From a virus: 24,468 nt of DNA. Made by a program: the position numbers and the translations under genes. A model generated the notes under the pieces. The model ran no database searches. It was not told where the DNA came from and was given only the letters and a program-made list of their open reading frames with translations. Of this stretch, positions 263 through 23,495 are shown piece after piece; positions within the stretch are counted from its first letter, which is position 1, and every line of letters begins with the position of its first letter. The DNA lies in the IMG/VR virus record IMGVR_UViG_3300020478_000063, positions 1 through 24,468 of that record; one strand, 5' to 3'.

Positions 263-642
263 GACTTATTTGTACTTAAAGAAATAAAATCACGCAAAAA
301 AATAAAATGTTTGCTAAGAGAGTCAAACAACTCGTGATTTAATGTAGTTATTTGATTATAGCTAGACCTACCTATACGTATAATATAATCACTATCCCCA
401 TACTCCGGAAAAACTCCAGAAACAAAAAGACACGTATCACCTAGTTCTTTAGCATTACGTGATTTATGAATAGTTAAGTAAGATTCAGCAAATGATTTTT
501 TAGGTAAGAAGTCAGACTTATCAAGATGGTCTGCTAGTAACATTACAACATAGCATTCTATGTCATTCGGTAAAGTAAGTCCCGTGCTTTCTTGAGTTTC
601 CCGAACTACCTCAAAGAAAGCCGTTTGATATACGTCCCTCAT
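232..642 (-). CDS. hypothetical protein, minus-strand late gene
   Basis: A 136-residue soluble protein read from the minus strand; no plus-strand frame competes across 263-760. The frame can be extended to a TTG at 672, but I choose ATG at 642 because a T4-late type core (TAAATA, minus strand 653 to 648) ends exactly 5 nt before it, the geometry seen at several other genes here. No Shine-Dalgarno site is visible, so the mRNA may be leaderless. The protein mixes an acidic helical N-terminal half (PNDIECYVVMLLADHLDKSD) with a C-terminal half containing RIGRSSYNQI and a hydrophobic FIFLRDFISL helix. It converges with the upstream gene, overlapping 31 nt. I do not recognise the family; it reads as a real, compositionally normal gene. 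Confidence 0.65.
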   Translation of the reverse strand: MRDVYQTAFFEVVRETQESTGLTLPNDIECYVVMLLADHLDKSDFLPKKSFAESYLTIHKSRNAKELGDTCLFVSGVFPEYGDSDYIIRIGRSSYNQITTLNHELFDSLSKHFIFLRDFISLSTNKSYTDSRFTYV

Positions 643-647
643 AACTA

Positions 648-655
648 TATTTACC
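648..655 (-). promoter_or_regulatory. T4-like late promoter (minus strand)
   Basis: On the minus strand the sequence is GGTAAATA, followed by 5 nt (tagtt) and ATG. TAAATA matches the 3' part of the T4 late box TATAAATA. Its position predicts a transcript beginning at or next to the start codon at 642. Confidence 0.5.
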
Positions 656-718
656 GGATTTTGGACAACCAAGGTACTAAACCACTGAATTTATTAGATT
701 TAATCGAAACCTAATTCG

Positions 719-747
719 TTGACTTTCAGTCTAAGATTTGTTATAAT
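719..747 (+). promoter_or_regulatory. sigma70-type phage promoter
   Basis: TTGACT at 719-724, a 17-nt spacer and a perfect TATAAT at 742-747, followed by TATAGTA. It drives the metallopeptidase gene starting at 773. The predicted leader is about 19 nt and carries a GAGG ribosome-binding site. Confidence 0.75.
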
Positions 748-772
748 TATAGTATAACATGAGGTGAAAATT

Positions 773-1249
773 ATGCAAATAAAATGCACAGGCGGGACAA
801 AAAACCAAAAAACGTATGGTAAATCTATCGCACTTTTTTCTGCTGGTAAACTCATGCACAAAAATTTAATCGAGAATCTTAAACTACATATAAAGTTCTC
901 AAATACTTTATTTGCTAACGAAGGAAATCTTGGTAATATCATGTGGGAAGATGACAACTATAAACCACGTGAATTTGTCATGGAAATTGACACTACTGTA
1001 AGACTTCGTAGAATCCTCGAAAGCATAGCTCACGAAATGGTACATTTGAAGCAATTTGCCAAGGGCGAAATGCGGGATATGATGACAGCTGATAAAACTG
1101 AATGGCTGGGTCAATCAATGCATTCTCGAAGCTTGGATTATTACGATTTACCCTGGGAAATTGAAGCACATGGGCGTGAAGTAGGGCTATTTGTACGATG
1201 GGCTGAAGCTCATAAGCTCGGAAAACGCAGGTGGACGTGGGATCGATAA
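773..1249 (+). CDS. putative zinc metallopeptidase (HExxH)
   Basis: A 158-residue protein carrying the zinc-metallopeptidase signature HEMVH at about residues 87-91, with a downstream acidic segment PWEIEAHGRE (about 127-136) that could supply the third metal ligand. The layout resembles small SprT-like or phage single-domain metalloproteases, but I cannot fix the family. It probably acts in the cytoplasm, since no signal peptide is present. I use ATG at 773 rather than an in-frame GTG at 764 because GAGG at 761-764 is then correctly spaced. It is transcribed from the promoter at 719-747 and is followed 9 nt later by a ClpP-like protease, giving two adjacent proteolysis genes, though the second also has its own late promoter. 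Confidence 0.75.
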   Translation: MQIKCTGGTKNQKTYGKSIALFSAGKLMHKNLIENLKLHIKFSNTLFANEGNLGNIMWEDDNYKPREFVMEIDTTVRLRRILESIAHEMVHLKQFAKGEMRDMMTADKTEWLGQSMHSRSLDYYDLPWEIEAHGREVGLFVRWAEAHKLGKRRWTWDR

Positions 1250-1252
1250 ATA
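1244..1252 (+). promoter_or_regulatory. T4-like late promoter overlapping a stop codon
   Basis: CGATAAATA. The TAA at 1247-1249 is also the stop codon of the metallopeptidase gene. The core ends 6 nt before the ATG at 1259 and there is no Shine-Dalgarno site between, predicting a near-leaderless mRNA. Confidence 0.6.
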
Positions 1253-1258
1253 CAGTAT

Positions 1259-1825
1259 ATGAGCACCAAGAAGATAGAGGACTTTACAGCCGCAGATCGA
1301 ATCGATATAAAACTTCTGGAAAACAACTGTCATTATTTGACAGGTGAGCTAGGAGAGGAAAATATCGGTGAAACGATCAAATGGTTGCTTTTTGAAAATC
1401 TAGAAAAGAAGCCGAAAAAAACTCTAACACTTTACATAAATTCAATAGGTGGAGATTTATATCAATCATTTGGACTCATTGACGTTATGCGTGATTCCTA
1501 TCATCATATTTCTACAGTTGGTATTGGTTCTGTAATGAGTGCGGCACTTCTTATTTTTGCAACAGGTACAAGCGGTAAACGATATATTGGTAAAAATACA
1601 GGAATTATGAATCACCAACATAGTGATGCCGTTGATGCCAAAATGCATGATATGAAAGCCCAGATGAAAGAGAATAACAACTGTGAACAGAGATGTTTCC
1701 AAATTCTTAGAGATGCTACAGGATATTCACTTGCAGAAGTTCGAAAAAAATTCAATAACCCTTCAGACCAATACTTTACAGCTAAACAAATGGTAGATCT
1801 TAAGTTAGCTGACCACATTTTATAG
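1259..1825 (+). CDS. clpP: ClpP-like serine protease
   Basis: A 188-residue protein that follows the ClpP fold through its whole length. The YINSIGG block (59-65) matches the ClpP oxyanion strand, S94 in GSVMSA is the expected nucleophile, H119 in MNHQ the catalytic histidine, and D170 in NPSDQYF the acid, so the Ser-His-Asp triad is intact. No propeptide is evident and the length is close to mature bacterial ClpP. In the cell ClpP forms a tetradecameric chamber fed by a Clp ATPase; here a host ATPase would be needed as none is seen. Phage ClpP homologues are known in marine myoviruses and could serve host takeover or head processing; the role here is inference. Translation must start without a visible ribosome-binding site, directly downstream of a late promoter. 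Confidence 0.88.
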   Translation: MSTKKIEDFTAADRIDIKLLENNCHYLTGELGEENIGETIKWLLFENLEKKPKKTLTLYINSIGGDLYQSFGLIDVMRDSYHHISTVGIGSVMSAALLIFATGTSGKRYIGKNTGIMNHQHSDAVDAKMHDMKAQMKENNNCEQRCFQILRDATGYSLAEVRKKFNNPSDQYFTAKQMVDLKLADHIL

Positions 1826-1835
1826 ACTTTTTCGG

Positions 1836-1864
1836 TTGACAAACCGTTTTGTAGATGTTATTAT
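1836..1864 (+). promoter_or_regulatory. sigma70-type phage promoter
   Basis: Perfect TTGACA at 1836-1841, a 17-nt spacer, TATTAT at 1859-1864, then ATAGTA. It lies in the 71-nt gap before the gene at 1897. The predicted leader is about 26 nt with GAGAGG as ribosome-binding site. Confidence 0.8.
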
Positions 1865-1896
1865 AGTAATATAATAATTAGGCAAGAGAGGCTAAA

Positions 1897-2622
1897 ATGG
1901 TACGCAAACAAAAAATCGAAGAACCAACATTTCCAACACAAGATGTAGTTGCATCGGCGTTTGCGGCACATAGGATCAATAAAGGTTACTTTAGAGAAAC
2001 TAGACGTTTCTCGACCGAAGGTATGGATACTCTTTTTTCTAATAAAGAAATGCTTACATATCAGTTTTCAGAAAAGCAATATCGTCAGCCTGATTTTAAA
2101 AAATTTAGGATACTTAAAAAAGATAAAGACCTAGCCAAAGAAGCTATAGATTGGTTACATAAAGAAAATGCTCTTAATATTATTGCTGGCAATCTAACTG
2201 ACTTCATGGATTCTTTAATGAAGTGCATTTCAACTGATAACTTAACTAAAAATAATTTTGGTACTGTAGCAGTACTACCAAAAGTGTACTTTGAAAATTC
2301 AAAAAAGAAAACTCTTAAAAAAGAGTTAAAAAATTCGTTTAGTGAAAGCAGACATATTGGCAAAGTTAAAGAAGCCATAACAGGAATGTTTACACTTCAC
2401 GAAATTCGATTTATTGATAAATTTGCTTGTCATGTATGTAATGGCAATATGGACGGAAACCTTGTAAGTTTCTTTAAAAACTTTGATCAAACACAAGTTT
2501 TACCTAAAGAAGGTACAACCTTTCATATTAAAGCAAAAGTTAAACGCCATGGGGATAACTTTATAACAAAGTTTCCGGAAACTCAGTTAAATTATGTTAG
2601 ATTTAAGGTTGACAATAAATAA
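1897..2622 (+). CDS. conserved hypothetical protein, 241 residues
   Basis: A basic, soluble 241-residue protein. The N-terminal half is lysine- and arginine-rich with predicted helices. Around residues 178-183 there is a CHVC pair (FACHVCNGN), and the C-terminal 40 residues (KAKVKRHGDNFITKF followed by TQLNYVRF) look like the end of a small beta-barrel, as found in nucleic-acid-binding proteins. This is a shape impression only; I do not recognise the family. It is expressed from the promoter at 1836-1864, shared in type with the ligase promoter, which would fit an early or middle DNA-metabolism role. Its last codons encode Val-Asp-Asn-Lys because the -35 box of the next promoter is embedded in them. 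Confidence 0.75.
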   Translation: MVRKQKIEEPTFPTQDVVASAFAAHRINKGYFRETRRFSTEGMDTLFSNKEMLTYQFSEKQYRQPDFKKFRILKKDKDLAKEAIDWLHKENALNIIAGNLTDFMDSLMKCISTDNLTKNNFGTVAVLPKVYFENSKKKTLKKELKNSFSESRHIGKVKEAITGMFTLHEIRFIDKFACHVCNGNMDGNLVSFFKNFDQTQVLPKEGTTFHIKAKVKRHGDNFITKFPETQLNYVRFKVDNK

Positions 2623-2637
2623 AATAGAGCTTATAGT
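2609..2637 (+). promoter_or_regulatory. sigma70-type promoter embedded in a gene end
   Basis: TTGACA at 2609-2614 lies inside the last codons of the upstream gene; after a 17-nt spacer the -10 is TATAGT at 2632-2637. It should drive the operon that contains the ribosomal protein bS21 gene. Confidence 0.7.
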
Positions 2638-2699
2638 ATAAAGATGTTCACAATAAAGAAAATAAAAAGTACTTTTACACAGACAGGAGTGATAAAATC

Positions 2700-2924
2700 A
2701 TGGCAGAAGAATCAACCTATAAAGTACCAGAATATATTGCGTTTGACGACGCACTTGAAGAAGATGATTGGGGACTTATTATCAATGCAAGTGGTGAACT
2801 TAAAGGAATTTATGTCCCTAAGGGGTGTGAAAATGACGAACCGCCCGAAGCAATTGTCGGGATTTGTGAAACTTATTTCGGAGTGGACTTTGATGAAGAA
2901 GATTTATTCCGAACAATACATTAG
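2700..2924 (+). CDS. conserved hypothetical acidic protein
   Basis: A 74-residue, strongly acidic protein (DDALEEDDWG near the N-terminus, DFDEEDLF at the C-terminus) with a central beta-rich segment containing LKGIYVPKG. It has the look of a small conserved marine-phage protein, but no function is known to me. AGGAG at 2685-2689 precedes the ATG by about ten nt, acceptable though long. An overlapping frame opening at 2644 has less plausible composition and is rejected. The gene ends 12 nt before the bS21 gene and is probably co-transcribed with it from 2609-2637. Confidence 0.75.
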   Translation: MAEESTYKVPEYIAFDDALEEDDWGLIINASGELKGIYVPKGCENDEPPEAIVGICETYFGVDFDEEDLFRTIH

Positions 2925-2936
2925 AATAGGAGGAGT

Positions 2937-3134
2937 ATGGAAGTAATCGTTCGAAACAATAACGTAGAAAAGGCATTACGTGTTTTGAAAAAGAAGATCA
3001 AGAAAGAAGGTCTTATGACAGAATTACGTGAACGTCAGTACTATGTTAAACCTAGTGAAAAACGAAGGCTTGCGAAAAAACGTGGCATTAAACGTGTTGC
3101 GAAAGAACGAGCCAAACGTGAAGCAATGATGTAG
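2937..3134 (+). CDS. rpsU: ribosomal protein bS21
   Basis: A 65-residue basic protein matching bacterial ribosomal protein bS21 over its full length: the N-terminal beta strand [13 protein letters not shown], the central helix with [15 protein letters not shown], and the lysine/arginine-rich C-terminal helix. bS21 is the last small-subunit protein to join, sits near the 3' end of 16S rRNA, and affects translation initiation. Phage copies are known from pelagiphages and other marine phages and are thought to replace or supplement host S21 so that ribosomes favour phage mRNA; that role is inference here. A full AGGAGG site lies only 3 nt before the ATG, the strongest but most tightly spaced ribosome-binding site in the region. 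The gene sits early in the operon starting at 2609-2637. Confidence 0.93.
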
Positions 3135-3139
3135 ATTAA

Positions 3140-3860: not shown

Positions 3861-4102
3861 GTCAATTGACATCATCTTGGAGTGAAAAAGCAGACGTTAC
3901 TAATACAGATACAGAACAAACTGTAACTGGCGAAGTTCACCAGTTTAAACCTGAAGCATTTTTAAGTGTGGTTTTAAATAAAGCAGTTAAATTAGATTTA
4001 AAATTTAGTCCACGTCATCAACTTTATATAGGAAATAAGGGCGGAATGGAATTTACGTCTAAAGGTCCAGAAGAGTATATACATAATGAAACTAGACGAT
4101 AA
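3857..4102 (+). CDS. hypothetical 81-residue protein
   Basis: A soluble protein of 81 residues, polar N-terminus (SSWSEKADVTNTDTEQ) followed by a short beta-type segment (KLDLKFSPRHQLYIGNKGG). No family recognised. It is coupled to the preceding membrane protein by an ATGA overlap and overlaps the following 2OG oxygenase gene by 17 nt, so all three are probably made together. Confidence 0.6.
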   Translation: MSQLTSSWSEKADVTNTDTEQTVTGEVHQFKPEAFLSVVLNKAVKLDLKFSPRHQLYIGNKGGMEFTSKGPEEYIHNETRR

Positions 4103-4589
4103 AATTCATGTATTAGAAAATTTTATATCGCTTGATCAATTAAAACGTATTCGTACAACAATTGAAAATGGTGGCTGGAAACCGCATCAAAGTACACACG
4201 AAGGCAATGAATTTTTAAATATGGATGTTACTAACGATCCTTATTATAATACCGAACTTTTTAATCACATTAAAGAAAAAATTAATCCAGACCTTAAACT
4301 AGGAAGAGTATATTTTAACGGACAATACTTTGGACAAGATGGTTCTTTTCATATTGACGATGACGAAGAAAAAAATAAAACTGTAATAATATATACTAAT
4401 AAAGTTTATTCATGGGGGTGGGGTGGATTTACAGAATTTATAAATCCAGAAGAAGGAGAACATAAACTTATTGCTCCTATTCTTTACAGAGCAGTATACT
4501 TTCCTGCTAATATATTACATAAGGCATACGCATTTGCACATCAAGATTGTCCTATGCGTACATCATTAAACTTTAAACTTGAAGGCTAA
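4086..4589 (+). CDS. 2OG-Fe(II) oxygenase
   Basis: A 167-residue protein with the double-stranded beta-helix signature of 2-oxoglutarate/Fe(II) oxygenases: the HxD pair H89-I-D91, a distal histidine H145 in NILHKAYAF, and R158 in MRTSLNF positioned to bind the 2OG carboxylate. The central block with GWGGFTEF matches the 'GG.l.f' strand of prolyl-hydroxylase-like enzymes. It would hydroxylate a protein, nucleic acid or small-molecule substrate using O2 and 2OG; the substrate is unknown. It overlaps the preceding gene by 17 nt and is one of six proteins in the window with the complete motif. Confidence 0.82.
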   Translation: MKLDDKIHVLENFISLDQLKRIRTTIENGGWKPHQSTHEGNEFLNMDVTNDPYYNTELFNHIKEKINPDLKLGRVYFNGQYFGQDGSFHIDDDEEKNKTVIIYTNKVYSWGWGGFTEFINPEEGEHKLIAPILYRAVYFPANILHKAYAFAHQDCPMRTSLNFKLEG

Positions 4590-4590
4590 T

Positions 4591-5674: not shown

Positions 5675-5956
5675 ATGTATTGGTACATAGTTTTTATATT
5701 TTACTTAAATGGAGCATCAAATATGGCACCTCCTAAATATACAGAGTATAAACAGGAATTTCTAAATAGATGGGATTGCAATCTTCATTTAAAAGAAAAG
5801 AAACCAGGACTAGTTCAAGGTTTATTAAATATGTTTCCAAACGTTGATAAAACTCGTTCTCGTTTACTTTGTATTAATCAACAGCAATTAAAGAAATTAC
5901 AAGAGTCAAGTGATAGGTTACGATATAGAAAATATATTAAATATGTGCCAGCATAG
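5675..5956 (+). CDS. hypothetical protein ending inside a tRNA gene
   Basis: A 93-residue protein with a hydrophobic N-terminus (YWYIVFIFYL) and a basic C-terminal half (KKLQESSDRLRYRKYIKY). AGGAG sits 4 nt before ATG 5675; an internal ATG at 5723 would remove the hydrophobic segment and is possible. The last 10 nt, including the TAG stop (5954-5956), lie within the tRNA-Thr gene, so processing of the tRNA cuts the 3' end off this mRNA. Family unknown. Confidence 0.6.
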   Translation: MYWYIVFIFYLNGASNMAPPKYTEYKQEFLNRWDCNLHLKEKKPGLVQGLLNMFPNVDKTRSRLLCINQQQLKKLQESSDRLRYRKYIKYVPA

Positions 5957-6022
5957 CTCAGTTGGTAGAGCAATGGTTTTGTAAACCATAGGTCCCGGGT
6001 TCGAATCCTGGTGCTGGCTCCA
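5947..6022 (+). tRNA. tRNA-Thr (anticodon TGT)
   Basis: A full cloverleaf: acceptor GCCAGCA (5947-5953) pairs with TGCTGGC (6012-6018); D stem GCTC/GAGC; anticodon stem ATGGT/ACCAT with loop TTTGTAA giving anticodon TGT (5980-5982), which reads ACA; T arm CCGGG-TTCGAAT-CCTGG. The CCA end is encoded (6020-6022). ACA is a common threonine codon in this AT-rich genome, so the gene plausibly supplements the host pool. Confidence 0.96.
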
Positions 6023-6308: not shown

Positions 6309-7102
6309 CTGAAGAATTTTATTTAAAACATAAAGATAAGTCTTGGGAACTACCTAAGTTTCCAGATGATGATATAGATGAAACTTCTGCTTCTCAAGTC
6401 GTTAATTGGATTTTTAATGAAATGAAAGCTGGCAACATAGGGTGGTTAGAAGTAAATCTTTTAAACGTTAAAGGAGGTGACTTTATACAGATAGGTTATC
6501 ATCATATGGGACAAATAGAAACACAAGTATTAGATCATAGAAACTTGTATAAGCCACAAAGTAACAATGTTTCTGAATGCTTTATGGTTAAAGATAAAGA
6601 ATGGGTTCCTGAGACTTGTACTCATACCGCGAATATTGAAGCATTTTGGCGACAAGATTTTCCTTTATCATCCTGGAATAAAATTCGCTTTGTTAAAATA
6701 GACCCCCATGGTTCTCTTAATATTCAAGAAGATCATATACAAGAAGTTCCATTAATTACTACTGAAGATTTTAGTAGTCATCCTTTTCATCTAATTTGTT
6801 CTATGAAGGAACCAGGGAAAAAATGTAAATTAATAGTTGAAGACTTTGGTGAATTACCACTCAAAGAAGGAAAAATATATCTACTTAATCCATATCGTAA
6901 ATATGTAATGGTTAATACATCAGAAACTGAACCGAGTATCCGCATACAACTTGAAGGAGTCCCAGGAAACAGATTTGGTGAATTTCTTAATTGTCTTACT
7001 AGGTCATTTTTTGAAATAGAAGGAAGACTAGGAAAAGATTATCTACGACAATTTAAACAACTTGATCAAAGAAAAGGTCCTGTCAGCGTAATGGATTACT
7101 AA
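6305..7102 (+). CDS. hypothetical protein, possible degenerate cupin
   Basis: A 265-residue protein. Residues 123-220 recall the aspartyl/asparaginyl hydroxylase-like cupin: KIRFVKIDPHGSLNIQEDH, then a beta strand, then LKEGKIYLLNPYRKYVMVNTS and SIRIQLEG, where the family normally has a jelly-roll with histidines. However, no clear HxD pair is present, so if related it may be inactive or a scaffold. This is a low-certainty fold guess. The gene starts in an ATGA overlap and ends in a TAATG overlap with a 2OG oxygenase, so the products of 6040-8186 are likely made in step. Confidence 0.55.
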   Translation: MTEEFYLKHKDKSWELPKFPDDDIDETSASQVVNWIFNEMKAGNIGWLEVNLLNVKGGDFIQIGYHHMGQIETQVLDHRNLYKPQSNNVSECFMVKDKEWVPETCTHTANIEAFWRQDFPLSSWNKIRFVKIDPHGSLNIQEDHIQEVPLITTEDFSSHPFHLICSMKEPGKKCKLIVEDFGELPLKEGKIYLLNPYRKYVMVNTSETEPSIRIQLEGVPGNRFGEFLNCLTRSFFEIEGRLGKDYLRQFKQLDQRKGPVSVMDY

Positions 7103-7605
7103 TGATAAAAGTAAAAAAAAACTTTTTGGATGAATCATTAATAACTGACATATCGCACTATGTAAAGGATAAACTTTATAACTACGAAGCAGTTTGGACT
7201 ACAGGACATAGTTGGCAACAAGAAATAATAGTCGAAGGATCTAATGCTGTTAATATGTTAGCTATTTCCGAATTTGATGACACTTTAAAAAATGCTTATT
7301 TAGATTACGACCCTTCCTTTAAAGATCGCAAATTTCAATTTAACATTATGTTTTGGAACAGATTAAGTGCAATTAACTGGCATAATGATTCAAATTACAT
7401 ATCTAGCACAATATATTTAAACAAAGAGTGGAACACGCTCGACGGCGGTCTTTTCCTTTATCGTCAAGCAAATAACTTACTAGCAATCGAACCCGAGTTT
7501 AATAAAATGATTATCGATTACGATAAAACATTTCATGCTGTTTCAATGGTATCACCATGGACTAAAGAAACTAGAGTAACACTACAAACAAGGATCTTAG
7601 AATAA
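7102..7605 (+). CDS. 2OG-Fe(II) oxygenase
   Basis: A 167-residue 2-oxoglutarate/Fe(II) oxygenase. The metal triad is H94-N-D96 (INWHND) and H145 (TFHAVSMV), and R158 (TRVTLQ) is the expected 2OG-binding arginine. The segment SSTIYLNKEWNTLDGGLFLY is the typical strand pair between the HxD motif and the distal His in prolyl-hydroxylase-like enzymes. Substrate unknown. It shares one base with both neighbours (TAATG at 7100-7104 and again at 7603-7607) and is followed directly by a second oxygenase. Confidence 0.87.
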   Translation: MIKVKKNFLDESLITDISHYVKDKLYNYEAVWTTGHSWQQEIIVEGSNAVNMLAISEFDDTLKNAYLDYDPSFKDRKFQFNIMFWNRLSAINWHNDSNYISSTIYLNKEWNTLDGGLFLYRQANNLLAIEPEFNKMIIDYDKTFHAVSMVSPWTKETRVTLQTRILE

Positions 7606-8186
7606 TGTTTTGGATTAATTCAAGTGCAAACAATGGATGGTTTTTTCATTTTGTAAAAAATGTATTTGATGAAAAGATACTGAACGAGCTAGAAGATCAC
7701 GTAAAGACTCATAATTTATTAGCCCCAGCTAAATTTGTTTCCGAAAAAACAGATGACGATCCTGATATTAGAGTAACTGAGGTAGCTTGGATTGATACTA
7801 GAACTAATCCAAACTTATATAGTGCATTATCTATGGCTATCAATAAAGCTAATAATGAATATTTTGATTTTCATCTTACATACTTAGAAACTCTCCAATA
7901 TAGTGTTTATCCACCAGGTGGACATTATAAATGTCATACAGATGCCGCATTAAAAGGACCAAATTGTGATTCAAGAAAATTATCTTTTTCGGTTGGATTA
8001 AATGATCCAGAAGAATATGAGGGTGGAGAACTTGAAATATGGACAGGTGGCGATAATAAACTTGTAAAACTAAAAAAATTTGAAATGGTTTTATTTCCTT
8101 CATGGATACCTCATCAAGTTAATCCAGTTAAAAAGGGTACTCGAAAGTCGTTAGTTGGATGGGTACATGGTCCTGATTTCAGATAA
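7605..8186 (+). CDS. 2OG-Fe(II) oxygenase, prolyl 4-hydroxylase-like
   Basis: A 193-residue oxygenase of the prolyl 4-hydroxylase (PKHD-like) group. YPPGGHYKCHTD contains H111-x-D113, FPSWIPHQVNPV carries distal H170, and R180 in GTRKSLVGWVHGP is placed to bind 2OG. SVGLND followed by YEGGELEIW is the hallmark mid-section. It should hydroxylate a protein or small-molecule substrate in the host cytoplasm. Last gene of a chain joined by 1-4 nt overlaps; a promoter follows immediately. Confidence 0.92.
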   Translation: MFWINSSANNGWFFHFVKNVFDEKILNELEDHVKTHNLLAPAKFVSEKTDDDPDIRVTEVAWIDTRTNPNLYSALSMAINKANNEYFDFHLTYLETLQYSVYPPGGHYKCHTDAALKGPNCDSRKLSFSVGLNDPEEYEGGELEIWTGGDNKLVKLKKFEMVLFPSWIPHQVNPVKKGTRKSLVGWVHGPDFR

Positions 8187-8598: not shown

Positions 8599-8606
8599 AG
8601 TAAATA
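8599..8606 (+). promoter_or_regulatory. T4-like late promoter
   Basis: AGTAAATA, located just after the terminator T run and ending 6 nt before the ATG at 8613; no Shine-Dalgarno site. This would restart transcription behind the terminator late in infection. Confidence 0.5.
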
Positions 8607-8612
8607 GTAATA

Positions 8613-8771
8613 ATGAAGTACGTTTTATCGCTGTTTTTAATATTAGTTCTTACAAGTTGCAACTCGGTTAGAAATTGTAATGTAAAGCCGGGTGTTGAAA
8701 TGCGAGGAAACGCAAATATAGATTTATTGAAAGATGCAGTACCACGAGCAACCGTTAAATGCCCATTTTAA
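8613..8771 (+). CDS. small lipoprotein, 52 residues
   Basis: A 52-residue open frame with a classic lipoprotein signal: MK, a hydrophobic core (YVLSLFLILVL) and the lipobox LTSC, with Cys16 as the lipidation site. The mature part is about 37 residues with two further cysteines and ends CPF. It should be anchored in the periplasmic leaflet of a membrane after export. Rz1-type spanin subunits have this size and build, but no partner gene is overlapped, so that is only one possibility. It starts at a late-promoter core and overlaps the SET-domain gene by 38 nt in another frame. Confidence 0.6.
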   Translation: MKYVLSLFLILVLTSCNSVRNCNVKPGVEMRGNANIDLLKDAVPRATVKCPF

Positions 8772-9243
8772 AAAACTTTGGTATAAGAAAAAATCCAAAG
8801 TTCATGGTACTGGCCTATTCGCTAGTAGAAAAATTAAAAAAGGCACAACTATAATAGAATACATAGGCGAAAAGGTTAAAAAGAAAATTGGTTATAAACG
8901 AGCTGACAAACACCTTCCTAAAGTATGGATATTCGAATTAAGTCATCATTATCTTATTGATGGTAAATTTCCCAGAAACCACGCAAGACTAATTAATCAT
9001 TCATGTGATCCAAATTGTGATATAAAAATTAAAAAAGATCATATTTGGATATATGCAAAAAAAGATATTAATAAAAATAAAGAATTAAATTATAACTACG
9101 GTTATGACTATGAGCGTGATGATGTGCTTGATCATCCTTGTAAGTGTGGCTCACCAAAATGTATAGGATATATTGTAGATAAAAGTGAGTGGCCTAAACT
9201 TAAAAAGTATTTGACAAAATCCAAAAAAGAGCATACAGTATAA
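8734..9243 (+). CDS. SET-domain lysine methyltransferase
   Basis: A 169-residue protein with a complete SET domain: KVHGTGLFA (23-30) is the S-adenosylmethionine-binding GxG motif, RLINHSCDPNC (85-95) the NHxC..N motif, ELNYNYGYDYE (117-127) the catalytic tyrosine motif, and a post-SET zinc cluster CKCGSPKC (136-143) completed by C95. All elements of an active SAM-dependent protein lysine methyltransferase are present. The target, host or phage protein, is unknown. ATG 8734 lies within the upstream lipoprotein gene, with only a weak GAAAG site. Its stop is 2 nt before the tRNA-Arg gene. Composition resembles its neighbours. Confidence 0.9.
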   Translation: MQYHEQPLNAHFKKLWYKKKSKVHGTGLFASRKIKKGTTIIEYIGEKVKKKIGYKRADKHLPKVWIFELSHHYLIDGKFPRNHARLINHSCDPNCDIKIKKDHIWIYAKKDINKNKELNYNYGYDYERDDVLDHPCKCGSPKCIGYIVDKSEWPKLKKYLTKSKKEHTV

Positions 9244-9245: not shown

Positions 9246-9322
9246 GGACCCGTAGCTCAGTTGGATAGAGCGTTAGTTTGCGGAACTAAAGGCCAGGAGT
9301 TCGAATCTCTTCGGGTCCACCA
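9246..9322 (+). tRNA. tRNA-Arg (anticodon GCG)
   Basis: Full cloverleaf: acceptor GGACCCG (9246-9252) with CGGGTCC (9312-9318); D stem GCTC/GAGC; anticodon stem TTAGT/ACTAA, loop TTGCGGA, anticodon GCG (9280-9282); T arm AGGAG-TTCGAAT-CTCTT; encoded CCA (9320-9322). It would read CGC and CGU. Bacterial CGN boxes usually use ACG (edited to ICG), so an encoded GCG is unusual. Confidence 0.94.
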
Positions 9323-12361: not shown

Positions 12362-12364
12362 ATA
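12357..12364 (+). promoter_or_regulatory. T4-like late promoter overlapping a stop codon
   Basis: GATAAATA, using the TAA stop of the upstream gene (12359-12361). The core ends exactly 5 nt before ATG 12370 with no Shine-Dalgarno site, predicting a leaderless late mRNA. Confidence 0.65.
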
Positions 12365-12369
12365 CTAGT

Positions 12370-13491
12370 ATGAGCACTAATGATATCAATGATTCAGAAA
12401 TTCTAGCAGTAAAAAACGGTCTTTTACAACTAGGTGAAGCAATCGAAACTATTGCTAATAGAGAATTGCCAGCACCTGAGATTCCTAACAGAAGTCTTAG
12501 TGGTGACAAGATCCAAGGTGGTAAAATTGCACAGTTTTCTAGTGCAGGTATTCGCGACGAAGCAACTAAACAGACTATTGTTGTAAAAGATGATGGGCTA
12601 TACGTTGATAACGTAGATGTTGCTACACTAGTCGGAGATATTGCTGTAGAAAACGATCTTAACGTAGGCGGTACTATTACTGCTACTAAAATAGAAGTAG
12701 ATGAATTAAAAGCAGATGTTAGAAACGAACGTACGAGCCCATTAGAGTTTGTTTGTTCAGTTGATCATGCACCATATGGAAAAGGTTTATTATGGACAGG
12801 ATATGATCATACCAAGCAATTAGTAATGCAAGGTAATCCAGATCGTATTTGGTCTAGTGAACATTTTGATCTACATACTGGTCATGAATATAAAATCGGA
12901 AATATCACAGTATTAAGTGCAACAGAACTAGGCCCGGATATAGTAAAATCAAGTTTAACTGAAGTAGGCACATTACGTAATCTTAAAACTGAAGGCAGTC
13001 TTACAATCGATCAGTTCGTCTTTTATAACGGAGACGAAATGCGATTTGGTATTGGAACAGAACTAGGCAATGGACAATTAAGTGTCGGCAGTAACGAAGT
13101 AGAATTCGTTGTTGATCCAGAATATGATTCAGTCAATGTAGGAGCATATACTACAAGTGATATGAACCTAATTACTGATAATCAAACAAGAATTAAGATT
13201 CGTTCTAACAATAGAATTGAAATAGGATCAGATAGTGATTCTATCACAACAGTTAAAGGAAAATTAGGAGTAGGAGTTAATAATCCTGACGTATGTTTCA
13301 GCACCTCCGGTCCAGTGAAATTTGAAAATAAAAAATTTGAAGTCGGAGTTGAACCACCAAGCAATGGAATCTACGTTAAAGGTGATATAGTTTGGAATCA
13401 AGAGCCAAGACCAACGGGATATGTTGGTTGGATTTGTATTAAAAACGGAACACCTGGGGATTGGAAACCATTTGGTGTTATAGAGGGATAA
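12370..13491 (+). CDS. tail fibre-like structural protein
   Basis: A 373-residue virion protein. It begins with a helical segment (about 1-35), then beta-rich repeats rich in Gly, Asn and Asp with phrases typical of phage fibres (VENDLNVGGTITATKIEVDE; KGKLGVGVNNP), and ends with a small terminal domain, TGYVGWICIKNGTPGDWKPF, seen at the tips of many marine-phage fibre and adhesin proteins. It probably forms a trimeric beta fibre involved in attachment. Late promoter at 12357-12364 fits. The exact fibre type cannot be told from this stretch. Confidence 0.8.
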   Translation: MSTNDINDSEILAVKNGLLQLGEAIETIANRELPAPEIPNRSLSGDKIQGGKIAQFSSAGIRDEATKQTIVVKDDGLYVDNVDVATLVGDIAVENDLNVGGTITATKIEVDELKADVRNERTSPLEFVCSVDHAPYGKGLLWTGYDHTKQLVMQGNPDRIWSSEHFDLHTGHEYKIGNITVLSATELGPDIVKSSLTEVGTLRNLKTEGSLTIDQFVFYNGDEMRFGIGTELGNGQLSVGSNEVEFVVDPEYDSVNVGAYTTSDMNLITDNQTRIKIRSNNRIEIGSDSDSITTVKGKLGVGVNNPDVCFSTSGPVKFENKKFEVGVEPPSNGIYVKGDIVWNQEPRPTGYVGWICIKNGTPGDWKPFGVIEG

Positions 13492-17814: not shown

Positions 17815-17827
17815 TATTTATTAAATA
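17815..17827. promoter_or_regulatory. divergent T4-like late promoter pair
   Basis: The near-palindrome TATTTATTAAATA supplies a late core to both strands: ATTAAATA on the plus strand, 5 nt before ATG 17833, and AATAAATA on the minus strand, about 25 nt before the fibre ATG at 17789. The two cores overlap by one or two bases, so both cannot be occupied at once. Confidence 0.55.
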
Positions 17828-17832
17828 TTGTC

Positions 17833-18426
17833 ATGCTTGTAATTGGCAACGGTGAAAGTAGAAAAGATATTGATATCAACAAATATGGTAGTATAAAGGT
17901 TGGTTGTAACGCAATTTTTAGAGACTTTTATGTAAATCATTTAATTTGTTGTGACCGCCGTATGGTTACCGAAGCACAACAAGAACGTAATTATGGTGCT
18001 ATCTATACTAGACCCGATTGGAGAGATGAATTTAAATTATGTGGGCTAGTTCCACAACTTCCTTATAAGGGCGATACAAGACCAGACGATCCTTGGCATT
18101 GGGGTAGCGGACCTTATGCAGTATTATTAGGAACATCAATAGCCAATAGATTTAGTTCTGGAAATCCTGAAATATCAATGATTGGTTTTGACTTATATTC
18201 AGAAACTAAAACTGTTAATAACATATATAAAGGAACAGAAAATTATGAAGCTACAGAATCAAGACCTATAGATCCTAGTTATTGGATTTATCAAATTGAC
18301 AAAGTATTTGAAAATTTTCCTGACACTACATTTTATTATTACAATAATAAGCCATGGCCAACTAAACAAACAAATGTATGTAACAAAATGGTAATTGAGT
18401 TTGATATAGATAATGAGACCACCTGA
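17833..18426 (+). CDS. glycosyltransferase-like (MptE/sialyltransferase-like)
   Basis: A 197-residue protein opening with LVIGNGESRKDID, a glycine-rich nucleotide-binding loop, followed by VGCNAIFRDF and LICCDRRMV. This order is seen in MptE-like and sialyltransferase-like (GT42/DUF115-type) sugar-nucleotide enzymes. The middle has the block GSGPYAVLLGTSIANRF and the strand ISMIGFDLYSE, also typical. The donor and acceptor are unknown. Starts leaderless from a late core back to back with the tail fibre gene and overlaps the next oxygenase gene by 14 nt, suggesting that both act in one pathway. Confidence 0.6.
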   Translation: MLVIGNGESRKDIDINKYGSIKVGCNAIFRDFYVNHLICCDRRMVTEAQQERNYGAIYTRPDWRDEFKLCGLVPQLPYKGDTRPDDPWHWGSGPYAVLLGTSIANRFSSGNPEISMIGFDLYSETKTVNNIYKGTENYEATESRPIDPSYWIYQIDKVFENFPDTTFYYYNNKPWPTKQTNVCNKMVIEFDIDNETT

Positions 18427-19063
18427 TCCAAAACATTTAGCGGCATTTCCAACATTAATATCTCAATGGGATATTATAGGACATCCTTGCGAAAATGTTG
18501 CAGTTCAAATGATTAACGAATGCGATAATGTTGGACATCATAGATTAGTCCAAGGTGGCAGAAGTAGTTATATTACAGGCAATGAACAATTCTTAAGTGA
18601 TAAACGATTAGTAGACTTATGGAAAACAATACAATCATGCTGTGATACATATTGTGAAGAAGCAGGAATAGATTATACTCTTATATCAACAAGTTGGTTT
18701 AATACTATGGAAGAAGGTAATTCAGTTGGAACTCATAGACACGAACGAAGTGTAATTAGTGGAGCATACTATCCTTATTGTGAAGAAGAAAGCGGACCAT
18801 TAATGTTAGAAAGTCCTTTACAACCATTACGAATGAACGATTGTATTATAAAACCTACATACTACAGTAGATATGATTTAGATATACAGACACGTACTGG
18901 CTTATTAGTAATATTCCCTAGTTGGTTAAGACATTATGTTGCACCAAATCCTAGTAAGAAAAGATACGTAATAAGTTTTAATACAATTCGAAATGCTGAT
19001 AGAGGATATATGCGAACAGTAAAAGATTATAGAACGGAAAGACATGAAGGCGACAATACCTGA
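18413..19063 (+). CDS. 2OG-Fe(II) oxygenase, TIGR02466-like (copy A)
   Basis: A 216-residue oxygenase. SWFNTMEEGN precedes THRHERSVISGAYYPY, with H108 and H110 as the candidate ligand pair (HxH rather than HxD); FPSWLRHYVAPN gives distal H174 and KKRYVISFN gives R184 for 2OG. This is the pattern of the TIGR02466 family of putative 2OG-Fe(II) oxygenases common in marine bacteria and phages. Substrate unknown. It is translationally coupled on both sides (14-nt and 20-nt overlaps) and shares most motifs with the next gene. Confidence 0.82.
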   Translation: MRPPDPKHLAAFPTLISQWDIIGHPCENVAVQMINECDNVGHHRLVQGGRSSYITGNEQFLSDKRLVDLWKTIQSCCDTYCEEAGIDYTLISTSWFNTMEEGNSVGTHRHERSVISGAYYPYCEEESGPLMLESPLQPLRMNDCIIKPTYYSRYDLDIQTRTGLLVIFPSWLRHYVAPNPSKKRYVISFNTIRNADRGYMRTVKDYRTERHEGDNT

Positions 19064-19691
19064 AGGACAATTCCGTAAAGCGGATTATTCATTATTTCCA
19101 ACACTAGTACAAGTATGGAATTTAGAAAACCATTCTGATCAAAAATTAGTAGTTGATACTATTGAAAGTTTTCAAGATGAAGTTTTAATGAAATGGCCAG
19201 TTGATATTGGCAAAGGTAAAACGAGTAGTAGATATTTTGATGTTGTTAGTAAAACCCATAAAACAGCAAACTTTTTAGACCGTGAAGAATTTAAAACATT
19301 AAAACAAGATATTCAAAATTGTGTAGATGAATTTTGTATTACGTGTGGATTAGATAAAGTTACTATTGCTAAAAGTTGGTTTAATATACAAGAAGAAGAT
19401 GGACACGTAAACGAGCATAGGCATGAATTAAGTATTGTAAGCGGTGCATATTATCCTTATTGCGATAAAGATAGTGCTCCAATTGTTTTTACAAGTCCGA
19501 TACTAGGACCAAAGATGTCTGAAATACACAATAACGCAACTGAATTTACTTCTGATAAAATGGAATTTACACCAAGAACCGGAATGCTTGTTTTATTTCC
19601 TAGTTGGTTATATCATAGAAGTTTATATAATAAAACCAATAAACGGTTAACAATTAGTTTCAACACACACCATATTCAGGTTGACAATTAA
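19044..19691 (+). CDS. 2OG-Fe(II) oxygenase, TIGR02466-like (copy B)
   Basis: A 215-residue paralogue of the preceding protein: KSWFNIQEEDG, NEHRHELSIVSGAYYPYC (H125, H127), LFPSWLYHRSL (H191) and NKRLTISFNTH (R201), with the same order and spacing. The two share conserved blocks such as SGAYYPYC but differ elsewhere, so the duplication is old. It may have a different substrate or form a heterodimer with copy A. Its final codons encode Val-Asp-Asn because the -35 box of the QueD promoter lies there. Confidence 0.82.
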   Translation: MKATIPEGQFRKADYSLFPTLVQVWNLENHSDQKLVVDTIESFQDEVLMKWPVDIGKGKTSSRYFDVVSKTHKTANFLDREEFKTLKQDIQNCVDEFCITCGLDKVTIAKSWFNIQEEDGHVNEHRHELSIVSGAYYPYCDKDSAPIVFTSPILGPKMSEIHNNATEFTSDKMEFTPRTGMLVLFPSWLYHRSLYNKTNKRLTISFNTHHIQVDN

Positions 19692-19709
19692 ACTTAATTG
19701 TTATATACT
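19681..19709 (+). promoter_or_regulatory. sigma70-type promoter embedded in a gene end
   Basis: TTGACA at 19681-19686 within the last codons of the oxygenase gene, a 17-nt spacer and TATACT at 19704-19709. The expected start is near 19716, giving a leader of about 57 nt for the QueD-like gene. Confidence 0.7.
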
Positions 19710-19716
19710 ATTACAA

Positions 19717-19776
19717 ATGAGGACTATAACGTCGACCCTCTTAAAATACTCCGCCGTTTTAAAGGAGAAGAAATGA
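19717..19776 (+). CDS. possible 19-codon leader peptide
   Basis: An ATG at 19717, within a base of the predicted transcription start, opens a 19-codon frame (MRTITSTLLKYSAVLKEKK) that ends in an ATGA overlap with the QueD-like start at 19773. It has no ribosome-binding site. The leader could be a coupled leader peptide or simply untranslated; evidence is positional only. Confidence 0.2.
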   Translation: MRTITSTLLKYSAVLKEKK

Positions 19777-20219
19777 AATATAAAAGTACAAAAACATACG
19801 GTAACGAAAGAGGCTTTAGTTGTGCGTTTAGACAAGCAGAAGCAACTCACAGTCATTGTTCATTAATTCATGGATACAGTTTAGGATTTCGTTTTGAATT
19901 TGAAGCAATTGAATTAGACGATAAAAATTGGGTTTATGACTTTGGCAATTGTAAATGGATCAAACAATATTTAGAAGATAATTTTGATCATAAATTTGCA
20001 GTTGATAAAAATGATCCTAATGTAGAAGACTTTATGGATTTAGATAAAAAAGGACTTGCAAAAGTAATCCTAATGGATGGTGTTGGTTGTGAAAAATTTG
20101 CAGAACACGTTTATAACTATGTAGGCCCATTAGTTGAAGAAGATACCGGCGGTCGTGTAAGACTTTCACTTGTTGAAGTTTTTGAACACGGTAGTAATAG
20201 TGCAATAGTGGAAAATTAA
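19773..20219 (+). CDS. QueD / 6-pyruvoyltetrahydropterin synthase-like
   Basis: A 148-residue member of the QueD/PTPS superfamily: C29 precedes LIHGYS (family LHGH), VYDFG and FDHKF match the conserved DFG and L/FDH motifs, and a C-terminal VEVFEH matches the substrate-binding glutamate strand. QueD makes 6-carboxy-tetrahydropterin for 7-deazaguanine (queuosine, preQ0) synthesis. Here the usual zinc ligands are altered: the family's A-H-R position is A-F-R (F19) and HGH is HGY (33-35), while ATHSHC offers H26 and H28. ATG 19773 has AAGGAG 6 nt upstream; an in-frame TTG at 19698 is not used. Other deazaguanine genes are not in the window, so the pathway is uncertain. Confidence 0.78.
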   Translation: MKYKSTKTYGNERGFSCAFRQAEATHSHCSLIHGYSLGFRFEFEAIELDDKNWVYDFGNCKWIKQYLEDNFDHKFAVDKNDPNVEDFMDLDKKGLAKVILMDGVGCEKFAEHVYNYVGPLVEEDTGGRVRLSLVEVFEHGSNSAIVEN

Positions 20220-20747
20220 ATGCGTGAAAAATTTTGGGAAGAACTAAACGAAGCTCGTAGTAAAAATGAAGTTAAACATTGGAATAATGTTTTTCCAGAA
20301 GCAGACACAATAGACTTCCCAACATTATTAGCTCATAATCAATATGAGTCACGAATTACTAATAACGATACAGTAATGACTCAATACGCAAGTAATATGA
20401 GTAATGTGCAAAGCAATTCTACAATTAGACCTTTCTATACAGAATTTGTGAATAATTATAAAGTAGTTGATACAGAAACTATCTATAATGCAAGTTTATT
20501 TTGGAGTTTCTCAGATCGTCATCATTCAATCTTCATGCACCGAGACCCTGAAAGTGTATTATTAATACAAGGATATGGCGAAGTTGCTTATGCAATATCA
20601 GATGAGTTAGGCACTGAAAACAAACTATTTCATGTAAAAACAGGTGATGCCTTTTTTCTTCCTAGATTAACTGCACATAAATCTATTCCATTAGAACCAA
20701 GAGTTACATTAAGTATCGGTGCAATTCCTTCTAAGCCAGCATTATAA
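20220..20747 (+). CDS. cupin / 2OG-Fe(II) oxygenase-like protein
   Basis: A 175-residue protein with a C-terminal jelly roll: HHSIFMHRDPESV contains H107-R-D109 (HxD), the strand VLLIQGYGEVAYAI follows, then KTGDAFFLPRLTAHKSI (GD before the turn, distal H153), and R161 in EPRVTLSIG. This resembles JmjC- or cupin-type oxygenases, with the facial triad intact. The N-terminal 65 residues are helical and unassigned. It begins immediately after the QueD-like stop (TAAATG) and so is coupled to it. Substrate unknown. Confidence 0.68.
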   Translation: MREKFWEELNEARSKNEVKHWNNVFPEADTIDFPTLLAHNQYESRITNNDTVMTQYASNMSNVQSNSTIRPFYTEFVNNYKVVDTETIYNASLFWSFSDRHHSIFMHRDPESVLLIQGYGEVAYAISDELGTENKLFHVKTGDAFFLPRLTAHKSIPLEPRVTLSIGAIPSKPAL

Positions 20748-20757
20748 GGAGAAGTAC

Positions 20758-21459: not shown

Positions 21460-21465
21460 CATTGG

Positions 21466-21494
21466 TTGACTTATAAACCAAATTCTGCTATATT
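21466..21494 (+). promoter_or_regulatory. sigma70-type promoter at the start codon
   Basis: TTGACT at 21466-21471, a 17-nt spacer and TATATT at 21489-21494, followed by ATAGTATG. The expected start (about 21500) coincides with the ATG at 21500, so this promoter also predicts a leaderless mRNA. Confidence 0.7.
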
Positions 21495-21499
21495 ATAGT

Positions 21500-22159
21500 A
21501 TGAAAAAAATATTTAAAAGTAATAAATTAAAATACTTTATATGGATACTGATAGCAATATCATCATGTATTATATCTTTCGGTTTTGGAACTTTTAAACC
21601 AAACTATTATATTATAGATAAAATAACTGAACGTGTTGAGATAGAACAATCTAAAATAGCAGTTAAATTAGGGCTACATGAACCAGAATTTGTTTATACC
21701 GATAAAAAGAGCTTTGTTGAGGCTGTAAGGAAATGTGTTAATTACATTAATTTTACAACACCTCATAGCCTACGAGTCCCATCTTTAATAATAGAAGCTC
21801 AAGCAGGATTAGAATCAGGCTGGGGAACAAGTAGATTTGCAATAGAAGGAAATGCACTATTTGGCGTTAGAACTTGGGATCCTAAAGTTCCACAAATAAA
21901 ACCTAAAGATATTCCAAATGCCGACTTTGGTGTCAAAGTCTATAAAACAAAATGTTTATCAATTCAAGATTATGTTGACTTGTTAAATAGTCATCCAGCA
22001 TACGAAGATTTTAGAAATTTAAGAATGGATATGGTTGACGCAGGAATTTACGATTATAATAAATTAATTGATACACTAGATCTATTTTCAACAAATCCTG
22101 ATTATACTAAATTGTTAAAAGCAACTGTAGAAAAATTAAAGGTTATAACTGCAAACTAA
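21500..22159 (+). CDS. Bax-like glucosaminidase, probable endolysin
   Basis: A 219-residue protein: basic N-terminus and one transmembrane segment (residues 11-30), a linker, then a glucosaminidase (Bax/FlgJ-like) domain from about 90. The block AQAGLESGWGTSRFAIEGN carries catalytic E105 and matches E. coli Bax closely; LFGVRTW follows. It should cleave peptidoglycan on the periplasmic side while tethered to the membrane, as a signal-anchor endolysin or a cell-wall-opening enzyme. No other Met gives a plausible start. The absence of a ribosome-binding site, plus the promoter placement, implies leaderless translation. Followed by two membrane/secretory-type small genes. Confidence 0.8.
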   Translation: MKKIFKSNKLKYFIWILIAISSCIISFGFGTFKPNYYIIDKITERVEIEQSKIAVKLGLHEPEFVYTDKKSFVEAVRKCVNYINFTTPHSLRVPSLIIEAQAGLESGWGTSRFAIEGNALFGVRTWDPKVPQIKPKDIPNADFGVKVYKTKCLSIQDYVDLLNSHPAYEDFRNLRMDMVDAGIYDYNKLIDTLDLFSTNPDYTKLLKATVEKLKVITAN

Positions 22160-22162
22160 ATA
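22155..22162 (+). promoter_or_regulatory. T4-like late promoter overlapping a stop codon
   Basis: ACTAAATA, using the TAA stop of the glucosaminidase gene (22157-22159), 6 nt before ATG 22169. No Shine-Dalgarno site between. Confidence 0.5.
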
Positions 22163-22168
22163 TAATAA

Positions 22169-22435
22169 ATGAAAAATATATTAAAATGGCATAAAGGACG
22201 AATAGACTGGTTTAAAAGAAAAACTGGTATTTCGGATTATGGATTATTATGGTACACATTTTTTAAAGGTGTACTAATAGGTATAATAATTATGCTATTA
22301 TCAGGTTGTACTGGAACACAAACAAAACCTACATTAGGCGGAGTTGGAAAAGCACTTAATTGTATGTTTCAACCAGATGATGAATGGTGTATTAAAGAAC
22401 GAGAAAGACAAAAAGGTGAAGACGAATGGAAATAA
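22169..22435 (+). CDS. membrane protein or lipoprotein, 88 residues
   Basis: An 88-residue protein with a basic N-terminal 25 residues, one hydrophobic helix (about 28-45, KGVLIGIIIMLL) and LLSGC, a lipobox-like ending at Cys47. The N-region is long for a lipoprotein signal, so it may instead be a single-pass anchor. The tail is hydrophilic (DDEWCIKERERQKGEDEW). Position behind a peptidoglycan hydrolase suggests a lysis function such as a spanin or holin, but no hallmark is present. It overlaps the next gene by 10 nt. Confidence 0.6.
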   Translation: MKNILKWHKGRIDWFKRKTGISDYGLLWYTFFKGVLIGIIIMLLSGCTGTQTKPTLGGVGKALNCMFQPDDEWCIKERERQKGEDEWK

Positions 22436-22629
22436 AACGTTCATATGGTATGGGGAAATCATTAGCTAATATCATGAGACTATCAGGAACTTTATCCACA
22501 GAAGATCATGCAATTGTTGAACCTGTAGCAAAAACCGGCCTTAAACAGAGTAGATTAAAACAAAAAACTCTTATACCACCGTTTTGCGACCCTAATGGCA
22601 AGGGTAAAAAAGTCAATATTACTATCTAA
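22426..22629 (+). CDS. hypothetical 67-residue protein
   Basis: A basic, soluble protein (RSYGMGKSLANIMRLSG; TGLKQSRLKQKTLIPPF). No signal or membrane segment. It starts in the 3' end of the preceding gene, so is probably coupled to it. No family recognised. Confidence 0.5.
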   Translation: MEIKRSYGMGKSLANIMRLSGTLSTEDHAIVEPVAKTGLKQSRLKQKTLIPPFCDPNGKGKKVNITI

Positions 22630-22641
22630 TATTAAAAAACA

Positions 22642-22649
22642 ACTAAATA
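22642..22649 (+). promoter_or_regulatory. T4-like late promoter
   Basis: ACTAAATA, about 35 nt upstream of ATG 22684. Unlike the leaderless cases, the transcript would have a normal leader with GAGGAG as ribosome-binding site. Confidence 0.5.
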
Positions 22650-22683
22650 TATACTAGACTACCATTTCGAGGAGACCCATCTA

Positions 22684-22983
22684 ATGTTTAAATGGCTTAA
22701 AGAAGTCTTTTTTGGAGAAATTCAAAAACCAAAGATTATAGAGGAAAAACGTGACCCATCAGCTTCTATTGATAATCACGTAACTCATTGGTCTAAGAAA
22801 ACAATGACACCTCAAAAACCTTTTGGAAAGAAAGTTTCAAAAAAAGCAAAATCACATACTAAAGCCCAACTTTCTAAAATGACTAAAAAAGATTTAGAAG
22901 CTTTAGGAAGAAAGCACGGTATTGAATTGGACCGTAGACTTGTTAAATCGAAGTTAGTCGATCAACTACACAAAGCATTGTAA
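22684..22983 (+). CDS. SAP/HeH-like domain protein
   Basis: A 99-residue basic protein. The C-terminal 42 residues (AQLSKMTKKDLEALGRKHGI followed by DRRLVKSKLVDQL) fit the two-helix SAP/HeH (Rho-N-like) DNA-binding domain found in phage proteins. The N-terminal half is a hydrophobic helix (MFKWLKEVFFGEIQ) and a lysine-rich linker. It may bind DNA or membranes during packaging or assembly; not proven. Start supported by GAGGAG 9-14 nt before ATG. Confidence 0.65.
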   Translation: MFKWLKEVFFGEIQKPKIIEEKRDPSASIDNHVTHWSKKTMTPQKPFGKKVSKKAKSHTKAQLSKMTKKDLEALGRKHGIELDRRLVKSKLVDQLHKAL

Positions 22984-22994
22984 GGAGTATTATT

Positions 22995-23159
22995 ATGTTT
23001 GAATGGATCAAAGAACGTTTTGAAGAACGCACATCATGGAATGGTATTATCATTGGTGGTGCGGCGTTATTAGTTATTCTCGGCATTGTACCGTTTAATA
23101 GTGTTATACTATGGGGTGCTCTTGCATGGGGCGTTTATAATATTTGGAAATCAGAATAA
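22995..23159 (+). CDS. small membrane protein, 54 residues
   Basis: A 54-residue open frame with AAGGAG 8 nt before ATG 22995. A charged N-terminus (MFEWIKERFEERTSWN) precedes two hydrophobic helices (GIIIGGAALLVILGIVPF and VILWGALAWGVYNIW). Typical of a short bitopic or hairpin membrane protein. It shares the WIKE/WLKE N-terminal motif with the preceding gene product, which may indicate a common ancestor or a shared targeting helix. Possible holin-like role is speculative. Confidence 0.65.
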   Translation: MFEWIKERFEERTSWNGIIIGGAALLVILGIVPFNSVILWGALAWGVYNIWKSE

Positions 23160-23186
23160 TTTTCAATTACAATTTAGATTAGTGTG

Positions 23187-23216
23187 GATCGACATCATAG
23201 TTTAGTGATGTCGATC
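23187..23216. other. hairpin at a convergent junction
   Basis: A perfect 11-bp stem, GATCGACATCA (23187-23197) and TGATGTCGATC (23206-23216), loop TAGTTTAG. The minus-strand gene's TGA stop sits in the left arm. Neither side has a T run, so termination is uncertain; it may stabilise both 3' ends. Confidence 0.6.
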
Positions 23217-23482
23217 ATACTATCTACTCTTAAGTTCAATCTTTTACGTTGTTCGACCCCTCGTTTTTGAGCAAATCTTTTAGGATCACATTTAGGGCAA
23301 ACGTGCGAATAATCGTCGCATAGCCTTTTAGGGTCTATACGGCCTTTATCTCTAGTGAATTCTTCACTACAATTATCACATTTAAATATTACTAAGGTCT
23401 TTTTACGTTTATAAGGATGGTGTTCGCCCTTTATACCTTTACGCATAAAGTATTGAATCGTTTGTTCTGTTCTTATAAACAT
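23195..23482 (-). CDS. zinc-ribbon protein, minus-strand late gene
   Basis: A 95-residue basic protein with two CxxC pairs: CDNC (about 35-38) and CPKC (62-65), consistent with a zinc ribbon. RFAQKRGVEQRKR after the second pair is strongly basic, so nucleic-acid binding is likely. HNH-type endonucleases sometimes have such modules, but the catalytic His motif is missing, so I do not call a nuclease. The family appears conserved in marine T4-like phages. TATAAATA on the minus strand ends exactly 5 nt before ATG 23482. Confidence 0.7.
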   Translation of the reverse strand: MFIRTEQTIQYFMRKGIKGEHHPYKRKKTLVIFKCDNCSEEFTRDKGRIDPKRLCDDYSHVCPKCDPKRFAQKRGVEQRKRLNLRVDSMIDITKL

Positions 23483-23487
23483 AAAAG

Positions 23488-23495
23488 TATTTATA
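23488..23495 (-). promoter_or_regulatory. T4 late promoter, exact consensus (minus strand)
   Basis: TATAAATA on the minus strand, identical to the T4 late consensus, then 5 nt (ctttt) and ATG 23482. No Shine-Dalgarno site can fit, so the mRNA is predicted leaderless. Confidence 0.75.

Follow-up and report, generated by a model that had tools for sequence, protein, structure and literature searches.

Late promoter boxes at start codons and predicted leaderless late mRNAs in a T4-related group of aquatic phages

The window described here, a viral record of 24,468 bases (IMG/VR record IMGVR_UViG_3300020478_000063) that represents a fragment, carries the hexamer TAAATA directly in front of several ATG start codons. 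The number of nucleotides between TAAATA and ATG is called d in the following, with N5 for d = 5 and N6 for d = 6. The N5 boxes are probably late promoters of the phage T4 type whose transcription start site (+1) lies on the A of the start codon, so that a set of late genes would be expressed from truly leaderless mRNAs beginning with 5′-AUG. In T4 the late box extends from −13 to −6 (PMC1524935). By this measure +1 falls on the A of the start codon in TAAATA-N5-ATG, and an mRNA starting at this base would be leaderless. A sigma factor of the gp55 family together with the host RNA polymerase would read the N5 boxes and set +1 at this A. The remaining late genes would use a box of identical type 15–32 nt upstream and a leader with a Shine-Dalgarno (SD) site. 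The N5 boxes stand at an exact spacing before starts without an SD site, are conserved, have a pyrimidine at −1 and an A at +1, and occur in phages whose relatives encode a gp55 homologue. Translation of the leaderless mRNAs on host ribosomes might offer an advantage, either SD-independent late translation or an escape from competition with leadered host mRNA.

Boxes in the window and their spacing in relatives

TAAATA-N{5,6}-ATG is found eight times in the window in comparison to 2.29 ± 1.60 times in dinucleotide shuffles, one of which (1/100) reached eight matches. TAAATA alone is rarer than expected (40 vs 58). Seven of the eight matches are starts of open reading frames (ORFs) and the remaining one, at 11361, is intragenic. 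At gene starts called by simple longest-ORF tiling, without a trained gene finder, eight boxes are located at d = 4–6, where the background is 0.22 per spacing (Poisson p = 5e-7); one of the eight is the internal match with its ATG at 11372. An earlier note on this DNA had listed the seven starts, and all of them are present: d = 5 at 642 (minus strand, box 653–648), 12370 (box at 12359), 17833 (17822) and 23482 (minus strand, 23493–23488), and d = 6 at 1259 (1247), 8613 (8601) and 22169 (22157). The same note was right in stating that none of the seven possesses an SD-like site and that at three plus-strand sites the upstream stop codon is exactly the TAA of the box (1247–1249, 12359–12361 and 22157–22159). 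The pattern, which it had proposed to count against shuffled sequence, recurs well outside the window in related phages.

A scan with the protein encoded at 11057–12361 yielded 80 viral loci with 35–98 % identity. Since the long records among these relatives encode a late sigma factor of the gp55 type, and since homologues of T4 proteins occur there in diverged form, the major capsid protein gp23 among them, the window is assigned to a deep clade of the T4 superfamily. A second lineage, called pelagic here, comprises the cultured phages HTVC008M, Mosig and Melnitz, which infect Pelagibacter and OM43; HTVC008M has matches to 39 T4 proteins, and these are much stronger than those of the clade. 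T4, KVP40 and the four cyanophages Syn9, S-PM2, P-SSM2 and P-HM1 served as controls. Sinorhizobium phage phiM12 and Stenotrophomonas phage DLP6 have no pattern match at all and are uninformative.

In both lineages the spacing between TAAATA and ATG shows a sharp peak at 5 nt, low counts at 7–14 nt and a second hump at 15–32 nt, which is mostly accompanied by SD sites. The peak is seen in pooled relatives and in sampled genomes alike, but it is missing in all six controls, which show the hump alone. Site-level Poisson and Fisher tests assume independence, and sites in related genomes are not independent; family-collapsed counts, in which each gene family is counted once per spacing, are therefore safer. 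Counted in this way, the clade has 33 gene families at d = 5 (background 4.6, p = 8e-18) and the pelagic phages have 16 (background 1.6, p = 3e-11), in contrast to five in the controls (background 3.9, not significant). Per-genome counts of plain TAAATAN{4,6}ATG against the reversed pattern are too noisy, so that ATAAATA in combination with gene starts was used. At d = 4–6 this heptamer ranks first of 21 heptamers of the same composition in 11 of 11 genomes with the peak and in none of the six controls. A general habit of the T4 family was rejected, because T4, KVP40 and the four cyanophages lack the peak. The N5 arrangement thus appears, from these genomes, to occur in a widespread T4-related group of aquatic phages and not in the classic T4-type phages examined.

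Chance in AT-rich DNA combined with the reuse of TAA stop codons has a next to negligible probability as a general explanation. It fits the match at 11361 and plausibly the three N6 sites, but it fails for 33 and 16 gene families and for conserved boxes, and the equally AT-rich T4 has no peak. For the N5 sites it is contradicted by homologue conservation as well as by the family-collapsed counts.

Promoter signature, late sigma factor and start of the transcripts

The N5 boxes and the boxes 15–32 nt upstream have common flanks which are specific for the lineage, namely G at −13 and A at −12 with C or T at −5 in the clade, and T at −13, A at −12 and G at −5 in the pelagic phages. Boxes at gene starts carry A at −12 in 57–77 % in addition to the lineage-specific base at −13, compared with 26 % A among all TAAATA. 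No strong conservation exists from −19 to −14 and the flanks drift up to 32 nt before the ATG, in profiles that covered the −35 region in part. Furthermore, the base at −1 is C or T at 53/54 and 19/20 d = 5 starts, as expected of an initiator, versus 43–52 % elsewhere; the pyrimidine excess in comparison to SD starts is significant (p = 2e-17 and 1e-5), and ordinary starts favour A at this position. The start codons at d = 4–6 in the clade are 92 ATG, no GTG and two TTG, whereas those behind leadered boxes are 191, 14 and 22, respectively (p = 2e-4); in the smaller pelagic set this bias is not significant. An SD site is present at four of 92 starts with d = 4–6 but at 123 of 191 starts with leadered boxes (p = 1e-24).

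The common box signature, the pyrimidine at −1, the nearly exclusive use of ATG and the lack of SD sites point, on sequence grounds, to a promoter and not to a translation element. An AT-rich initiation signal which replaces the SD site would likewise directly precede the ATG of SD-less genes. However, the box with identical lineage-specific flanks is also found 15–32 nt before starts that do have an SD site, permuted A/T heptamers of equal composition produce no peak, and a pyrimidine at −1 suits an initiator where ordinary starts prefer A. Such a signal is hence quite improbable.

The late sigma factor expected for promoters of this type is encoded in relatives of the window (G001, G012, G022, G028 and G029), with matches to phrog_12791 (E~1e-73) and to the gp55 structure 7d7c of the PDB (E = 6e-6). 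The sliding clamp gp45 is annotated in HTVC008M and Mosig.

Late promoters whose transcripts begin elsewhere, or genes whose real start codons lie downstream, would give leadered mRNAs. The distance between a late box and the start might indeed vary by at least one base, and a few homologues have d = 7–8. Against this stand the sharp peak at d = 5 with low counts beyond and the homologous proteins, which start at the same residue. In HTVC008M, moreover, the N5 sites coincide with starts that had been annotated independently for the genes of tape measure, tail tube cap, baseplate wedge and DNA end protector. Leadered transcripts are accordingly unlikely, although they are the least improbable of the alternatives considered here.

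Single sites and neighbouring genes

The four N5 sites of the window recur in homologues, whose entry counts include related contigs. In front of the tail-fibre or structural gene at 12370–13491 the box GATAAATAC with N5 and ATG (12359–12372, plus strand) has counterparts at d = 4–6 in 47 of 47 homologue entries; 15 nonredundant proteins retain the box and their spacer varies. The 95-aa Cys-rich gene at 23195–23482 is preceded by TATAAATAC with N5 (23480–23493, minus strand), and a box at d = 4–6 is found in 44 of 49 entries, reaching distant relatives. The site at 17822–17835 (plus strand), which belongs to a 197-aa gene starting at 17833, is matched in 31 of 42 entries from window-region loci and clade genomes, and a further 26 entries, which are more distant and located on gp23-side contigs, have no box at d = 4–6. 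For the 136-aa gene at 232–642, with its box and ATG at 640–653 (minus strand), homologues with a box at d = 4–6 exist in L015, L016, L021 and on gp23-side contigs. All four genes are predicted to be leaderless. Outside the window, an 82-aa gene adjoining gp23 has the box at d = 4–6 in 51 of 52 entries, and the tail-tube family phrog_45 in 42 entries of pelagic-type phages, 40 of them environmental. Nonredundant sets of 8–37 proteins show upstream bases and spacer varying around the box; because these sets were selected for d = 5, they document the drift of the flanks and not the retention of the box.

Reinitiation from the preceding stop codon could also serve SD-less starts, and at 1259, 12370 and 22169 an upstream stop is located 8–9 nt 5′ of the ATG. 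The starts at 642, 17833 and 23482, however, have a divergent neighbour, so that no adjacent gene on the same strand can feed ribosomes to them, which makes reinitiation a very improbable substitute for leaderless mRNA.

Upstream of 17833 a second late box (17815–17820, minus strand) lies 25 nt 5′ of the ATG at 17789 and would provide a leadered transcript of a 1172-aa gene. The two divergent boxes at 17815–17827 (TATTTATTAAATA) are one base apart, leadered for the 1172-aa gene and of the leaderless type for 17833. This pair is kept in relatives and presumably has room for only one polymerase at a time.

Some observations weigh against placing the transcription start on the start codon, or against doing so at every site. 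The N6 sites of the window are not conserved. That at 1247–1261 (plus strand, box GATAAATA) precedes the gene of a ClpP-like protease (PF00574), whose homologues in L015, L016, L020, L021 and L025 have the box farther upstream, as in the leadered type. The site at 8601–8615 (plus strand, 52-aa lipoprotein-like ORF) recurs in L009, a contig of 98 % identity, and once in L014, and the one at 22157–22171 (plus strand, 88-aa lipoprotein-like ORF) only in L009. Some homologues show d = 7–8 without an SD site (L034 and L178 for 23482; L018 and L020 for 17833), implying leaders of possibly 2–3 nt or a shifted start site. Distant relatives have d = 4 as often as d = 5, which would require a one-base flexibility of the start site. 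In addition, the 24 kb fragment does not extend as far as a sigma gene of its own. The co-activator gp33 (PF16805), present in T4, KVP40, Syn9 and HTVC008M, was not detected in the clade records, but its absence from the clade is not established because the protein is small and the clade strongly diverged.

Since the N6 boxes are poorer and lack conservation, they are not pooled with the N5 boxes, and 1259, 8613 and 22169 are regarded as weak candidates, plausibly due to chance. The proposal of the earlier note that all seven boxes start transcripts at or next to the AUG is thus strongly supported by the comparative tests for the N5 sites but not for the N6 sites. The match at 11361–11374 (plus strand), within the gene 11057–12361, is judged to be chance; a hidden internal start was rejected, as the match is retained in close relatives only and most homologue entries lack it.

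Among the further genes of the window, a Fe-S biosynthesis protein (PF01521) is encoded at 23551–23874 behind a late-type box at 23525–23530 (plus strand), 20 nt 5′ of the ATG and hence leadered. A SET-domain protein is encoded at 8734–9243 (PF00856, E = 2.5e-23) and a PTPS-like protein at 19698–20219. 2OG-Fe(II) oxygenases and JmjC-like proteins cluster within the 24 kb (4086–4589, 7102–8186, 18413–19691 and 20220–20747), and two tRNA genes are present, tRNA-Thr(TGT) at 5947–6022 and tRNA-Arg(GCG) at 9246–9322. In relatives, phage-encoded Fe/Mn and Cu/Zn superoxide dismutases stand behind late boxes of the leaderless type (L083:14792–15352 and L030:20501–21049).

Ribosomal protein bS21 and comparison with known systems

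The bS21 gene announced by the earlier note is located at 2937–3134 (plus strand, 65 aa, PF01165, E = 4.5e-17). It has a strong SD site (AGGAGG) and follows a leadered late box, ATAAATA at 2616–2621 (plus strand), 22 nt 5′ of the ATG at 2644, from which the transcript would continue into bS21. In several records of the clade (G005, G008, G009 and G011; loci L016, L021, L022 and L025) the bS21 gene occurs twice. Among cultured phages bS21 and the N5 peak occur together in three of three cases, and both are lacking in six of six others. On the other hand, the clade relatives G038–G040 (160–210 kb, possibly incomplete) have boxes of the leaderless type and no detectable bS21, so that a strict link is not upheld, and the argument of the earlier note from bS21 to altered initiation is suggestive only and not established. 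A coupled takeover of transcription and translation, in which a large set of aquatic phages of the T4 superfamily would switch part of late expression to leaderless mRNAs while a co-transcribed late bS21 of their own tunes host ribosomes to SD-independent initiation at 5′-AUG, is conceivable but rather doubtful.

Leaderless mRNA has mostly been studied as a rarity of E. coli or as a trait of some few bacterial phyla. The phage group described above, with cultured members that infect SAR11 and OM43, appears as a whole to make leaderless mRNA part of its late programme by relocating a known promoter. The spacing of the box would give a simple genomic readout of which late genes are leaderless and could help to place start codons when these very common viruses of aquatic habitats are annotated. 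Moreover, the question why phages carry bS21 becomes testable.

No previous report of leaderless late mRNA in T4-like phages or cyanophages was found in the open-access literature searched, which is not proof of absence. The Thermus phage phiYS40 expresses its middle and late genes as leaderless mRNA, and during infection IF2 increases and IF3 decreases (PMC3594737). Leaderless late phage transcripts are common to both systems, in the present case predicted from sequence; a gp55-type box is not reported for phiYS40, whereas a phage bS21 is sometimes present here. In Deinococcus-Thermus leaderless mRNA arises where a −10 element stands at a fixed distance from the ORF behind it (PMC12340547), but there a cellular housekeeping sigma factor and TANNNT are used instead of the box of a phage late sigma factor in viruses of other hosts. 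Phage bS21 was found to be expressed with late structural genes and was proposed to favour phage mRNA (Chen et al. 2022; PMC9723584); the main text of that study mentions neither promoters nor leaderless mRNA. A further comparison is that with the late promoters of T4, which depend on gp55, gp33 and gp45 and have TATAAATA at −13 to −6. Unlike the N5 boxes, those of T4, KVP40 and the cyanophages lie about 15–32 nt upstream, and gp33 was not detected in the clade records. Nevertheless, the TAAATA core with its flanks resembles TATAAATA as in a T4-type late promoter, and both systems share the position of the box before late structural genes and a sigma factor of the gp55 family, encoded here in the relatives of the clade.

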